Shown piece by piece: positions 12,764 through 37,783 of a stretch of 46,917 nucleotides of DNA. The DNA comes from Nitrospirota bacterium. GTDB taxonomy: Bacteria; Nitrospirota; Thermodesulfovibrionia; UBA6902. Each line of letters begins with the position of its first letter. Position 1 is the stretch's first letter. Under the pieces are notes generated by a model, which did no database searches, was not told the DNA's origin, and was given only the letters and a program-made list of their open reading frames with translations. A program made the translations under genes and the position numbers. The DNA lies in NCBI GenBank assembly GCA_016234115.1, contig JACRHD010000001.1, positions 1-46,917 on the forward strand, written 5' to 3'.

Positions 12764-12793
12764 TGACAAGTACATTATAACATAAGCAGTATA

Positions 12794-13026
12794 GTGACAA
12801 GTAACAAGTGACAGGTGACAAGTAAAAGGTAATTTTATAAGCCGCGTAAGCCTTCATCAGTTATGAGTTGTCTCTTTGCGCCGGAAAGAAACCCACCTCT
12901 TGCCCCTCCCATGAGGGGACCTTGTCTTTATTCCCCTCTTGAAGGGTGCAGGGGTGTGTTAAAACTCGTAAACTGAATGGATACTAAGCCGCTTGTCACT
13001 TGTCACTTGTTACCCGTTACTTTCTT
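12794..13026. repeat. inverted pair of 7-bp tandem arrays
   Basis: GTGACAA, GTAACAA, GTGACAG, GTGACAA and GTAAAAG run in exact register from 12794 to 12828. CTTGTCA, CTTGTCA, CTTGTTA, CCCGTTA and CTTTCTT run from 12992 to 13026 as the inverse. They face each other across about 160 bases that also contain GCCCCTCCCATGAGGGG and C/G-rich repeat pieces but no gene. The second array ends 20 bases before the rhomboid start. Confidence 0.75.
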
Positions 13027-18541: not shown

Positions 18542-18688
18542 AGTTACGTGGATACAATCCCCCCCTTTGGCAAAGGGGGGCGAGGGGGGATTTTTCAATT
18601 CATTCTAGAATCTCCCCTAACCCCTGCTTAAGGCACCTACTGTTGGTCTTTACCAAAGAGGGGAATCGTTAAATCACCCCACGTAACT
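18542..18688. mobile_element. MITE-like C-rich dispersed element
   Basis: Perfect 10-bp ends AGTTACGTGG (18542-18551) and CCACGTAACT (18679-18688) bound a 147-bp unit. Inside is the C-rich unit CCCCCCTTTGGCAAAGGGGG (from about 18560), then GGCACCTACTGTTGGTC, also found near 32345, and TACCAAAGAGGGG. There is no gene. The composition suggests a miniature element built of nested repeats. Confidence 0.55.
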
Positions 18689-30883: not shown

Positions 30884-31216
30884 AGATCAGGCAAGAAGGG
30901 CGCATATCATCTGTTTCCCAAAATGGGGCTCTGCCCCAAACCCCGGCTACTTATTTGCGCGGCCAAATAAGTAACCAACAAAGGCCGCCCCGGATTGTTT
31001 CTAAACGGGATAATTCAGGCCTGAACGCTAAATTCAAAAAACTCGCTCCGCTCAGACACTTTTGAATTTTTAACGCGTTCAGTCCTGAATTATCCCTAAA
31101 ACAATCAATGGGGATTTTTGAACCCCATTACCTTTCAAAAAAACATCCCGTTTATGTTAAAGTTTTACGGAAATGTTCGCTGACGATTGTAAACAGGAAG
31201 GCAGGTAAAGAATTGC
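30884..31216. other. gene-free stretch of stacked palindromes
   Basis: It contains GGGGCTCTGCCCC-like and CTTATTTG/CAAATAAG (about 30950-30973) hairpins, the 47-bp-arm palindrome at 30993-31106, and GGGGATTTTTGAACCCC. No gene is seen. Confidence 0.6.
30993..31106. repeat. long palindromic repeat with 47-base arms
   Basis: Arm 30993-31039 (including GGGATAATTCAGGCCTGAAC) and arm 31060-31106 (including GTTCAGTCCTGAATTATCCC) are imperfect inverted copies. They surround a 20-base centre, CTCGCTCCGCTCAGAC. It is probably a dispersed element, not a terminator, since no T-run follows. Confidence 0.7.
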
Positions 31217-32284
31217 GTGGCTGACACAGACAAACAGGCAACAGGCGTCGTCCTGCTCAACCTCGGCGGGCCGGACTCGCTGCAGGCGGTCAGACCGTTT
31301 CTCTTCAATCTCTTTTCCGACAGGGAAATCATCAGGCTCGGGCCGGCTTTTCTCCAGACGCCGATAGCGTGGCTGATTTCGACCCTCCGCTCGAAGAAGA
31401 CAGAAGCGATGTACAGGCAGATCGGGGGCAAGTCCCCTATACTCGACATTACGAAGGCCCAGGCGGAGGCGCTGGAGAAGGCGCTGAATGGAGAGTCAGG
31501 AGTCAAGAGTCAAGAGTTAAGTTCCAAACTCCAAACTCCGGACTCTAAACTCCACTTCAAGGTTTACATCGGCATGCGTTACTGGCATCCGTATTTTGAA
31601 GATATGGTAAAGAACATCATCTCTGACGGGGTAAAAAACCTTATCGTCCTCAGCATGTATCCCCACTATTCAAAAGCTACAACCGGATCATCCATCGATG
31701 AGTTCAACAAGGCAGTCTCCAAACTCCAAACTCCAAACTCCAAACTCCAAACGCAGTACATCGACCGGTGGTATGATTTCCCTCCCTACATAGACGCTCT
31801 TGCGGAAATTATAAGCGAGGGATTATCTGAATTTTCACCCCCCTTTGGTGAAGAGGGGCAGGGGGGGGGTACCGTCCTTTACAGCGCCCACAGCCTGCCG
31901 CAGTCTTTTATCGACGAGGGAGATCCTTATCTTGAACATATCAAAGCTACCATTTCGGCAGTGAACTCGTCACTCGTCACTCGTCACTCGTTACTGTTTA
32001 AATGGCGGCTTTCTTTCCAGAGCAAGACAGGGCCTGTCAAGTGGCTGGAGCCTTCAACGGAGGAGGCGATAATGGAGCTTGCGCGTGAGGGATGCAAAAA
32101 CCTGTTTGTCGTCCCCATCAGCTTTGTGTCGGACCATATTGAAACGCTGTATGAGATTGACATCCTCTATAAAAATCTTGCTCAGAAACATGGTATTATT
32201 CTAAGTAGATGCCGGGCGTTGAATACGACTGAGAAATTCATACATGCCATGAGGGAGCTTGTTATGGGGAAGACAGAATCATAG
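31217..32284 (+). CDS. hemH: ferrochelatase HemH with repeat-derived insertions
   Basis: HemH inserts iron into the porphyrin at the end of haem synthesis. This 355-residue protein has VVLLNLGGPDSLQAVRPFLF, the active-site His in LYSAHSLPQSFIDEGDPY and the Glu in VPISFVSDHIETLYEID. GTG 31217 is the start. Four repeat elements are translated in frame: a nine-unit heptamer array at 31493-31555 (21 residues, ESGVKSQELSSKLQTPDSKL), a five-unit array at 31717-31751, a C-rich unit at 31836-31872 (SPPFGEEGQGGG) and a five-unit array at 31961-31995. All fall between conserved blocks, probably in surface loops, and the frame is kept. hemG/hemY follows after about 200 bases. Confidence 0.95.
   Translation: MADTDKQATGVVLLNLGGPDSLQAVRPFLFNLFSDREIIRLGPAFLQTPIAWLISTLRSKKTEAMYRQIGGKSPILDITKAQAEALEKALNGESGVKSQELSSKLQTPDSKLHFKVYIGMRYWHPYFEDMVKNIISDGVKNLIVLSMYPHYSKATTGSSIDEFNKAVSKLQTPNSKLQTQYIDRWYDFPPYIDALAEIISEGLSEFSPPFGEEGQGGGTVLYSAHSLPQSFIDEGDPYLEHIKATISAVNSSLVTRHSLLFKWRLSFQSKTGPVKWLEPSTEEAIMELAREGCKNLFVVPISFVSDHIETLYEIDILYKNLAQKHGIILSRCRALNTTEKFIHAMRELVMGKTES
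31493..31555. repeat. nine-unit 7-bp array inside hemH
   Basis: GAGTCAG, GAGTCAA, GAGTCAA, GAGTTAA, GTTCCAA, ACTCCAA, ACTCCGG, ACTCTAA and ACTCCAC run in exact register for 63 bases, a multiple of three, so 21 residues are added in frame. Confidence 0.88.
31717..31751. repeat. five-unit 7-bp array inside hemH
   Basis: CTCCAAA is repeated five times perfectly (35 bases). It encodes part of SKLQTPNSKLQTQ, the same peptide type as the first array. Confidence 0.9.
31836..31872. repeat. C-rich dispersed unit inside hemH
   Basis: CACCCCCCTTTGGTGAAGAG and GGGCAGGGGGGGGG match the unit at 18559-18592 in order and spacing. Here it is translated as SPPFGEEGQGGG. Confidence 0.75.
31961..31995. repeat. 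five-unit 7-bp array inside hemH, third site
   Basis: GTGAACT, CGTCACT, CGTCACT, CGTCACT and CGTTACT run in register (35 bases) and encode VNSSLVTRHSLL. Confidence 0.88.
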
Positions 32285-32480: not shown

Positions 32481-33881
32481 ATGAAACGAATTGCGATTGT
32501 CGGCGGAGGACTGTCAGGCCTTACGACCGCGTATGCGCTTCTCGGCAGGAAAAATGATCTGGATATTACTGTTCTTGAGTCCGACAGCAGGCTCGGCGGA
32601 AAGATTTGGACGGACAGGGCCGACGGCTTCCTCTGCGAAAAAGGCGCCAACGGCTTTCTTGACAACAAGCCGCGCACTCTCGAATTATGCAAAAGCCTCG
32701 GCATCGAGCCTTTACGCGCCAATGAGAATGCCGCGAAGCGGTATATATTTGTCAACGGAAAGCTCAACTCCCTGCCGGAGTCGCCTCCCGCTTTTATTAA
32801 ATCCGACCTCCTTTCATGGAAGGGTAAGCTCAGGATGTTGTTTGAATACAACGCCCCGAAAGGGCCTGATGATGAAACCGTTGCCGATTTTATAATCAGG
32901 CGGCTTGGAAAGGAGGCCCTTGATAAGCTTATCGACCCTATGACCTCGGGGATTTACGCGGGCGACCCTTACACCATGAGCATCACAAGCTGCTTCCCTC
33001 GCATTAAGGAGCTTGAGCAGCAGTACGGCGGATTATTCAAGGGTTTATTGAAAATAAGAAAGGAAAAGAAGCGTAGGGGCGGGGTGACCCCGCCCTTACA
33101 GGATGGAGGGTCAGGTAATGACAAAGTCTCGGTGGCGCCGGGCGGCAAACTTACGTCATTCTATAATGGGGCGCAGACAATGACGGACGCGCTGGCGACG
33201 GAACTTGGAGACAGGTTACGTACCGGGGTTTCAGTCCAGGGAATTGTAAAGAACGGGAACCGGTATCAACTCCACACCTCAGGAAATACCGTTGAAGCCG
33301 ACATAGTGATACTTGCCTCTCCGGCTTATGCATCTGCCGAAATACTGAGAGATTTTGACGGAGACATTTCAAAGGCGCTCTCCGACATTCCATATCCCCA
33401 CGTAGCGGTTGTGTGCTTCGGATATAAAAAAGAAAAGGTAGGTCATCTCCTGGACGGCTTCGGATTTCTTGTTCCTCATATCGAAGGGCGGAAGATACTC
33501 GGCACGCTCTGGGATTCAAGCATATTCCCCAACAGGGCGACGGAAGGACACGCCCTGTTGAGGACCATGGTCGGCGGCGCCAAGGCGCCGGACATGGCGA
33601 TGCTTGCCGACAACAGGATTATAAGCGCTGTCTTTGACGAGCTCAAACCGATTCTCACCTTGAAATCAGACCCTGACATGGTAAAGATTTACAGGTGGGA
33701 CAAGGCAATTCCCCAGTATGTTCTCGGGCATGCGGACAAATTGAAACTGCTTGATGATAAATTAAGGGCCTGGCCCGGACTGTACCTGACAGGTAATTCA
33801 TACAGAGGCATCGGCATGAATGACTGCGTGGAGAGCGGGTACAGGCTTGCGGATGAGATCATCGCCGGACTCGCAGTATAG
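32481..33881 (+). CDS. hemG: protoporphyrinogen/coproporphyrinogen oxidase (HemG/HemY, FAD)
   Basis: This 466-residue flavoprotein oxidises a porphyrinogen just before iron insertion. The FAD-binding GxGxxG is IAIVGGGLSGLTTAYALL (5-22), then VLESDSRLGGKIWTDRADGF. The C-terminal WPGLYLTGNSYRGIGMNDCVESG closes the FAD site. An oxygen-dependent type of enzyme is suggested; whether it uses proto- or coproporphyrinogen cannot be told. A loop near 195-210 (RRGGVTPPLQDGG) is encoded by the palindromic repeat at 33073-33099. AAGGAGTTACC precedes the ATG. It is probably in one transcription unit with hemH. Confidence 0.94.
   Translation: MKRIAIVGGGLSGLTTAYALLGRKNDLDITVLESDSRLGGKIWTDRADGFLCEKGANGFLDNKPRTLELCKSLGIEPLRANENAAKRYIFVNGKLNSLPESPPAFIKSDLLSWKGKLRMLFEYNAPKGPDDETVADFIIRRLGKEALDKLIDPMTSGIYAGDPYTMSITSCFPRIKELEQQYGGLFKGLLKIRKEKKRRGGVTPPLQDGGSGNDKVSVAPGGKLTSFYNGAQTMTDALATELGDRLRTGVSVQGIVKNGNRYQLHTSGNTVEADIVILASPAYASAEILRDFDGDISKALSDIPYPHVAVVCFGYKKEKVGHLLDGFGFLVPHIEGRKILGTLWDSSIFPNRATEGHALLRTMVGGAKAPDMAMLADNRIISAVFDELKPILTLKSDPDMVKIYRWDKAIPQYVLGHADKLKLLDDKLRAWPGLYLTGNSYRGIGMNDCVESGYRLADEIIAGLAV
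33073..33099. repeat. GTAGGGGCGGGG palindrome inside hemG
   Basis: GTAGGGGCGGGGT and ACCCCGCCCTTAC form a near-perfect hairpin. The intergenic copy at 44945-44973 has the same arms with a different loop. Here it is translated. Confidence 0.75.
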
Positions 33882-36872: not shown

Positions 36873-36976
36873 AGAAATCTGTGTAACTCCGTGTATAGCT
36901 AAATAGGATTGAAAATCTGTAAACGGCATTGTTTTTTTGGGCGATTTTTGTTACGATTTACCTCGATTGAAAAATT

Positions 36977-37004
36977 ACAAATTTCAAATTTCAAATCTCA
37001 AATT
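36977..37004. repeat. four-unit 7-bp array upstream of scpB
   Basis: ACAAATT, TCAAATT, TCAAATC and TCAAATT run in register and end 8 bases before the scpB ATG, occupying the ribosome-binding region. Confidence 0.8.
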
Positions 37005-37012
37005 TACGTTCC

Positions 37013-37783
37013 ATGGAAGACAAAGAAGCCAAATCGATACTTGAAGCAGTCCTCTTTATATCCGGAGATCCGATATCGCCTGACTCACTCAGCAGTATTC
37101 TGGAGGTAGACAGGGGAGAGCTGGACAGGCTTGTAAAGGAGCTGGTCAATGATTATACGATAAACAATACGGGCCTTCTCGTGGCTGAAGTTGCCGGCGG
37201 CGTGCAGATGGTCACCAATCCCGCCTGCGCCCCCTGGATCAGGAAGCTCCTCGCTACCTCTGTGCCCGCGAAATTGTCCCAGCAGTCGTTGGAGACCCTC
37301 GCCATCATTGCGTACAAACAGCCGATCATCAAGGCCGAGATCGAGGCCATCAGGGGCGTGAATTCAGACGGGGTAGTCAAAACACTCCTCGACAGGAAAC
37401 TGGTTAAAATCCTTGGCAGGAAGGAAGTCCCCGGCAGGCCGCTTATGTACGGCACGACAAAGGAGTTTCTCCAGCACTTCGGCTTAAAAGACCTCTCCGA
37501 GCTGCCGACACTGAAAGAGTTCCAGGAGTTTGAAACCCCCGAGGCGCCTGAGCAGGTCCCTTCTGAACAGGAGATGCCGGAATACGCCGGGACAGATCAG
37601 CAGCCGGCGGAGGAGTCTGTCGAAACTTCACAGGATGAAGTCCATGCCGAGGATGAAGGTGAAGCCGCAATTACTGAAAATGCAGACCCGGCAGAGGAAG
37701 AAACAATTGAGGATTCTGTTCACAGGGAAAATGATGATTCTGGTGAACACGATGAAGAAGAGCGTTCAGGGCAGTTGCCGTAA
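37013..37783 (+). CDS. scpB: chromosome segregation and condensation protein ScpB
   Basis: ScpB binds ScpA as part of the SMC complex that compacts chromosomes. The 256-residue protein has the two winged-helix domains (SILEAVLFISGDPISPDSLS; SQQSLETLAIIAYKQPIIKA, EIEAIRGVNSDGVVKTLLDR) and RPLMYGTTKEFLQHFGL. The family usually ends near here. An acidic tail of about 85 residues (from about 172) follows, rich in Glu. Its last 25 residues are duplicated at 42870-42940. A heptamer array replaces the usual ribosome-binding site. scpA is not in the window. Confidence 0.93.
   Translation: MEDKEAKSILEAVLFISGDPISPDSLSSILEVDRGELDRLVKELVNDYTINNTGLLVAEVAGGVQMVTNPACAPWIRKLLATSVPAKLSQQSLETLAIIAYKQPIIKAEIEAIRGVNSDGVVKTLLDRKLVKILGRKEVPGRPLMYGTTKEFLQHFGLKDLSELPTLKEFQEFETPEAPEQVPSEQEMPEYAGTDQQPAEESVETSQDEVHAEDEGEAAITENADPAEEETIEDSVHRENDDSGEHDEEERSGQLP

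Follow-up and report, generated by a model that had tools for sequence, protein, structure and literature searches.

Four in-frame repeat segments in a Nitrospirota ferrochelatase and a dispersed heptamer element that probably keeps entering core genes

The ferrochelatase gene hemH of a Nitrospirota bacterium (assembly GCA_016234115.1, contig JACRHD010000001.1) is read without interruption through four segments of repeat DNA, three built of seven-base units (heptamers) and one from an unrelated C/G-rich palindromic family. The gene lies in a stretch of 46,917 nucleotides that was analysed whole and is called the window here. The heptamer segments belong to an element of fixed size that is dispersed through the genome and is present in frame in other core genes as well as in hemH, and relatives carry repeats at the same sites of hemH. 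The explanation favoured here, with a probability of about two in three, is that an element resembling a miniature inverted-repeat transposable element (MITE) keeps entering genes, and that selection retains only those copies that are free of stop codons and keep the frame in tolerant loops. The figure is a joint one: it extends to the proposals that hemH has been hit repeatedly by dispersed repeats of the two families, the surviving copies being read as protein, and that the loops of essential proteins in this bacterium go on taking up repeat DNA. The features concerned are:

31217..32284, plus strand: hemH, ferrochelatase; 355 amino acids, GTG start, sole copy found in the assembly.
31493..31552, plus strand: site 1, complete inverted-repeat element (GAGTNNN)4-gttc-(NNNACTC)4; about residues 93-112.
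31717..31752, plus strand: site 2, single arm (CTCCAAA)5.1 with four ACTC cores, the unit also being written ACTCCAA; about residues 167-179.
31838..31869, plus strand: site 3, C/G-rich palindromic repeat CCCCCCTTTGGTGAAGAGGGGCAGGGGGGGGG of a separate repeat family; about residues 208-218.
31965..31995, plus strand: site 4, single arm (ACTCGTC)4.4, replacing a native 20-residue stretch by 18; about residues 250-260.

Four repeat segments in an intact ferrochelatase frame

The frame of 355 codons was intact, and its product matched Pfam PF00762 over the full length (residues 9-350, E 1e-106). The catalytic residues His225 and Glu309, which align with the SAHSLP and SDHIETLYE motifs of the human enzyme, were unchanged in all 30 aligned sequences. 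A single hemH was found across the 3.5-Mb assembly; a pseudogene or second hemH was ruled out, this being the one intact copy. A first-pass annotation of the window had placed four in-frame repeat segments in hemH, with the catalytic histidine and glutamate intact; this was borne out, the enzyme being a single-copy core enzyme.

The pattern ACTCNNNACTCNNNACTC occurred nine times in the window, eight of them inside hemH; the number expected from shuffling was 0.00. Period-7 arrays were located with Tandem Repeats Finder (hits at 31492-31521, 31523-31554, 31717-31752 and 31965-31995). Site 1 had been described as a tandem array of nine copies and 63 bases, which was wrong: two opposed four-unit arms, (GAGTNNN)4 at 31493-31520 and (NNNACTC)4 at 31525-31552, are joined by four bases into one inverted-repeat element. 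In the genome statistics, which were drawn from 780 kb of sampled stretches and from whole-genome pattern searches, site 1 was one of 25 perfect paired elements and had the shortest loop among them. The arrays at sites 2 and 4 contain exactly four ACTC cores each. Conversion of site 2 to the commonest unit of the genome was rejected as an origin, CTCCAAACTCCAAACTCC being present at only one other genomic place. All four segments are of repeat origin, as had been proposed; their description as four insertions fails at site 4, a replacement with 18 residues against 20 in most of the family.

Members of the site 3 family consist of a run of C and a run of G around T3-N-A3, together with another run of G; 13 copies were counted in the 780-kb sample and none after shuffling. 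A second copy in the window lies at 18559-18589. In the gene next to hemH, which encodes a protoporphyrinogen-oxidase-like flavoenzyme (32481-33881), a C/G palindrome at 33072-33105 is read as RRGGVTPPLQ, and the RGGVTPPLQ motif recurs in relative G026 (L104), in the linker of its CarA. The DNA upstream of hemH includes, at 31010-31100, an inverted repeat (GGGATAATTCAGGCCTGAAC... GTTCAGTCCTGAATTATCCC) that is imperfect and some 90 bases long. Predicted HemH peptides around SQELSSKLQTPDSKL, for example, would span repeat junctions.

An AlphaFold2 model was built from 30 sequences, with a mean predicted local distance difference test score (pLDDT) of 88. It aligned to human ferrochelatase 1hrk with a VIA-align Z of 40.8 and a root-mean-square deviation of 1.8 over 323 residues, and has the chelatase fold. 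All four repeat sites fall in the model in connections from a helix to the next strand, in agreement with the earlier expectation of loops between conserved blocks. Site 1, between helix 75-91 and strand 113-120, is disordered (residues 95-109, pLDDT under 50). Site 2 lies between helix 153-170 and strand 178-182, site 3 between helix 189-203 and strand 218-224, and site 4 between helix 238-257, the end of which it also encodes, and strand 262-267. In the model, strand 218-224 precedes His225 and strand 295-300 precedes Glu309, which would place both residues on strand-to-helix connections.

The same four places in relatives

The 49 hemH genes compared, the named relatives being Nitrospirota metagenome-assembled genomes, were variable at the same four places, and the frame was intact in almost all relatives examined. 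The insertions had been expected to be absent elsewhere; instead, these four sites also hold repeats in relatives from its own genus, family and order, in most cases built of different units. Site 1 ranged from 3 to 41 residues. Site 2 had 16 residues in most of the family; a length of exactly 21 (63 bases), the usual one among repeat-bearing relatives, was present in thirteen genomes, eleven of which gave a lag-7 identity of 0.59-0.91. The site 2 units seen, which differ by species, were CTCCAAA, GCTCAAC, TTCCAAG, TTTCAAA, GGTCAGG and ATTCAAG. The repeat form of site 4 comprised 18 residues in 13 genomes and 26 in a fourteenth, in which a palindrome resembling repetitive extragenic palindromic (REP) elements lies within the heptamers; the peptide was nearly constant in most of these 14 carriers (NS(S/L)L, then R or H, then SL). 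A REP-like palindrome (CCTGCCCTGAGCTTGTCGAAGGGTC type), in frame within a heptamer segment and read as EPALSLSKGH, was observed at site 4 of L013 and at site 1 of L023, a repeat nested in a repeat.

The strongest alternative to recurrent entry, although we consider it improbable for the whole pattern, is that the arrays at sites 2 and 4 are old, shared and inherited, and that all units of an array change together through conversion, whether among themselves or by other arrays, with the result that relatives keep the place and the length and lose the unit. Inherited arrays are possible at site 2. There the length of 63 bases is held in thirteen genomes despite differing units, and in the ten clearest arrays units were 0.76 alike within an array and 0.47 across species at the same position, with flanking DNA at 0.74; the common register may, however, be set by the beta-strand, which the segment has to encode. 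At site 4 the near-constant peptide also favours inheritance, but the tree does not. In a hemH tree built without the repeat columns, many deep branches of which were weak, the 14 carriers were rejected as one clade by the approximately unbiased test (p 0.0005), with at least seven changes needed, and a single ancestral gain of the site 4 form was rejected by the same test. Moreover, two congeners, G043 (repeat form) and G038 (native form), are entirely different at site 4, between flanks that are 82-93% identical in most blocks. Because these flanks agree on both sides, no long tract was exchanged at site 4, and exchange of long hemH tracts was rejected as the cause. The density of the heptamer element was higher in genomes with the heptamer form of site 4 (median 12.5 versus 0.95 per Mb, Mann-Whitney p 1e-4, uncorrected for kinship).

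The interdomain linker of carA holds, species by species, AGAAGTC, GAGTCAA facing ACTCAAA, AAGATTC-type units many-fold and, in others, C-rich palindromes. Recurrent gain in tolerant places explains both the hemH and the carA patterns. A broader generalisation is offered tentatively: throughout one order of the Nitrospirota the same few core-enzyme loops may have been rewritten repeatedly by heptamer segments, of constant length at one site and with a species-specific unit. In that event hemH and carA would record a continuing turnover of translated repeats through an undescribed copying mechanism with a seven-base quantum.

The heptamer element across the genome

Period 7 alone was strongly enriched in the 780-kb sample: four-fold recurrences of a tetramer numbered 356 at a spacing of 7, compared with 28, 10, 3, 0 and 0 at spacings of 8, 9, 6, 5 and 10. 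The main family has the core GAGT/ACTC and the arm consensus TA-(GAGTYAA)4-G, and its arms occur as pairs across a short loop or singly. Exactly four units were present in 39 of 51 arms, and adjacent arms of opposite orientation faced inward in 14 of 15 cases and outward once. The arm ends were sharp: 40 of 44 arms had G at inner position +4, and 16 of 44 had TA immediately outside, compared with 4.5% in the background. Across the whole genome, 292 four-core matches were found versus 4 for a reversed control pattern, and the perfect facing pairs, of about 60-85 bases, numbered 25 versus 0. Folded as RNA, site 1 (z -3.5) and three further copies form hairpins, the z values ranging from -3.5 to -9.5.

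Plain slippage of the polymerase on seven-base units, with in-frame lengths surviving, has some basis in work according to which heptamers are, in many bacteria, the most frequent of the long repeat units, and which reports a proposal of slippage tied to a 7-nt polymerase contact (PMC4679880). It is an unlikely source of these arrays, since a fixed number of units, facing pairs and sharp ends with TA outside point to insertion or copying as a unit, and slippage does not generate inverted partners.

Heptamer arrays lay inside long open frames in 16 of 51 and 19 of 52 cases in two sets of stretches, together 35 of 103 in 780 kb, a count in which a few frames may be spurious. The earlier view that it is rare for an essential enzyme to accept insertions in such number is therefore not supported, and the original framing around a single gene is too narrow. 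The carriers identified, many of them core enzymes and named from Pfam domains and our own sequence reading, included HisF, PyrC, CarA, CarB, FtsK, an IspE-like GHMP kinase, an MMPL exporter, a histidine kinase, Tgt, MnmA, ThyX, PriA, two P-type ATPases, a heptosyltransferase, EtfA and a menaquinone enzyme; Tgt and MnmA have three arrays apiece. Elsewhere in the window, two arrays of the AAGTGAC family (12793-12820 and 12992-13020) stand in opposite orientation about 170 bases apart, and an open frame at 37013 has an AAATTTC array (36972-37003) in front of its start codon, with about ten bases between the two.

That the enzyme benefits from the inserted peptides, or that the arrays are phase-variation switches of heme synthesis, would fit the frame kept in almost all relatives but is very improbable, as site 1 varies freely in sequence and length and is disordered in the model, the same element is found in unrelated genes, and seven-base switching of a single-copy core gene would be costly.

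Proposed origin and nearest precedents

The element is a small inverted repeat with four heptamers per arm; on the favoured explanation it would be inserted or copied as a unit and would behave as a non-autonomous mobile or copied element, unlike a slipping microsatellite. It may enter both intergenic and coding DNA; within genes, we infer, selection would leave only in-frame, stop-free copies in tolerant loops. The ferrochelatase gene would offer four such places, and repeats could accumulate independently in the hemH genes of related species because four tolerant helix-to-strand connections are available.

Terminal inverted repeats, small size and many dispersed copies, all expected of a MITE, were found in the 25 paired elements. 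Several observations weigh against the proposed origin. Target-site duplications were not visible (two-base identity in 2 of 12 paired elements, three-base identity in 1 of 12), and the element is called MITE-like rather than a MITE for this reason. At the five Y1 transposase loci examined no array lay within 1 kb of the gene, so that no autonomous partner was found at these loci. No strain close to this one and lacking an insert was among the genomes compared, and the insertion event itself was not observed. Finally, slippage could account for those arms whose units number 3, 5, 6 or 11.

Element density rose with that of Y1 transposases across 61 genomes (rho 0.44, p 0.0004), and was related neither to reverse transcriptases (rho 0.04) nor to DDE_Tnp_1 (rho -0.12), all three uncorrected for kinship. 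The richest of these genomes in the heptamer element, G000, has six Y1 transposase matches and none to RVT_1 or DDE_Tnp_1. The Y1 link is a lead only, because of that lack of correction and because the arrays kept their distance from the five Y1 genes; heptamer arrays as flanks of Y1 transposase genes were not seen at these loci. RVT_1 and DDE_Tnp_1 gave no match in this genome, other transposase families not having been searched, and reverse transcriptase and DDE_Tnp_1 were rejected as movers on their absence and on the lack of a density correlation.

Repeat DNA is usually thought to be excluded from essential bacterial genes. Here a defined small element is scattered in frame through core metabolic and replication genes, and the copies in the same loops differ among several species, which amounts to a natural experiment on how folded proteins tolerate foreign peptides. 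The findings also bear on the reason for the frequent seven-base unit of bacterial repeats, a question that the literature notes without a settled mechanism. A literature search on in-frame repeats in Nitrospirota returned no relevant paper; as far as the literature searched shows, two points are new, namely how many core genes are hit and that the contents of shared loops are particular to each species.

Several known repeats share single features with the element. The GGGAATC repeats of Xanthomonas and the GGGGA(C/T)T repeats of Nostoc are four-unit heptamers; they are over-represented in non-coding DNA and form G-quadruplexes, and the part of their description consulted mentions no facing arms (PMC4692102). 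The TAACTGA repeats of Beggiatoaceae likewise form genome-wide heptamer arrays but are mostly intergenic, upstream of start codons, and direct, with only one indirect (PMC4679880). REP elements with Y1 (REP-associated tyrosine transposase, RAYT) genes (REP families: PMC3733652) are also small dispersed hairpins, and the density of the present element rises with Y1 genes; unlike them, it has no GTAG or CGTC tag, and no array lies near the Y1 genes examined.

The nearest precedents come from Geobacter, with its heptamer elements, and from Rickettsia, with its palindromic element. Geobacter metallireducens has dispersed elements of four heptamers (Gmet_H4) within and between genes, with paired heptamer sites, and a further class of five heptamers paired on opposite strands (PMC2700814). 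Four tandem heptamers and coding as well as intergenic copies are common to both systems; the unit is GAGTYAA here and GGACCGG or MTYCTGA there, which makes them different families of the same architecture. The Geobacter elements were proposed to be regulatory, and the part of that report consulted mentions no set of essential enzymes in which copies are translated (PMC2700814). The Rickettsia palindromic element, the classic example of a palindromic element that is translated within conserved genes, is a small inverted repeat found in frame in conserved protein genes, and a gmk product with an insert was enzymatically active (reviewed in PMC2229807). In-frame insertion into conserved genes is likewise found here; the Rickettsia element is 105-146 bp long and belongs to another phylum, and the two are likened by description, with no common sequence claimed. 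To our knowledge, it is not built of heptamers. The present element has the architecture of the Geobacter elements, the lifestyle of the Rickettsia palindromic element and a unit of its own.
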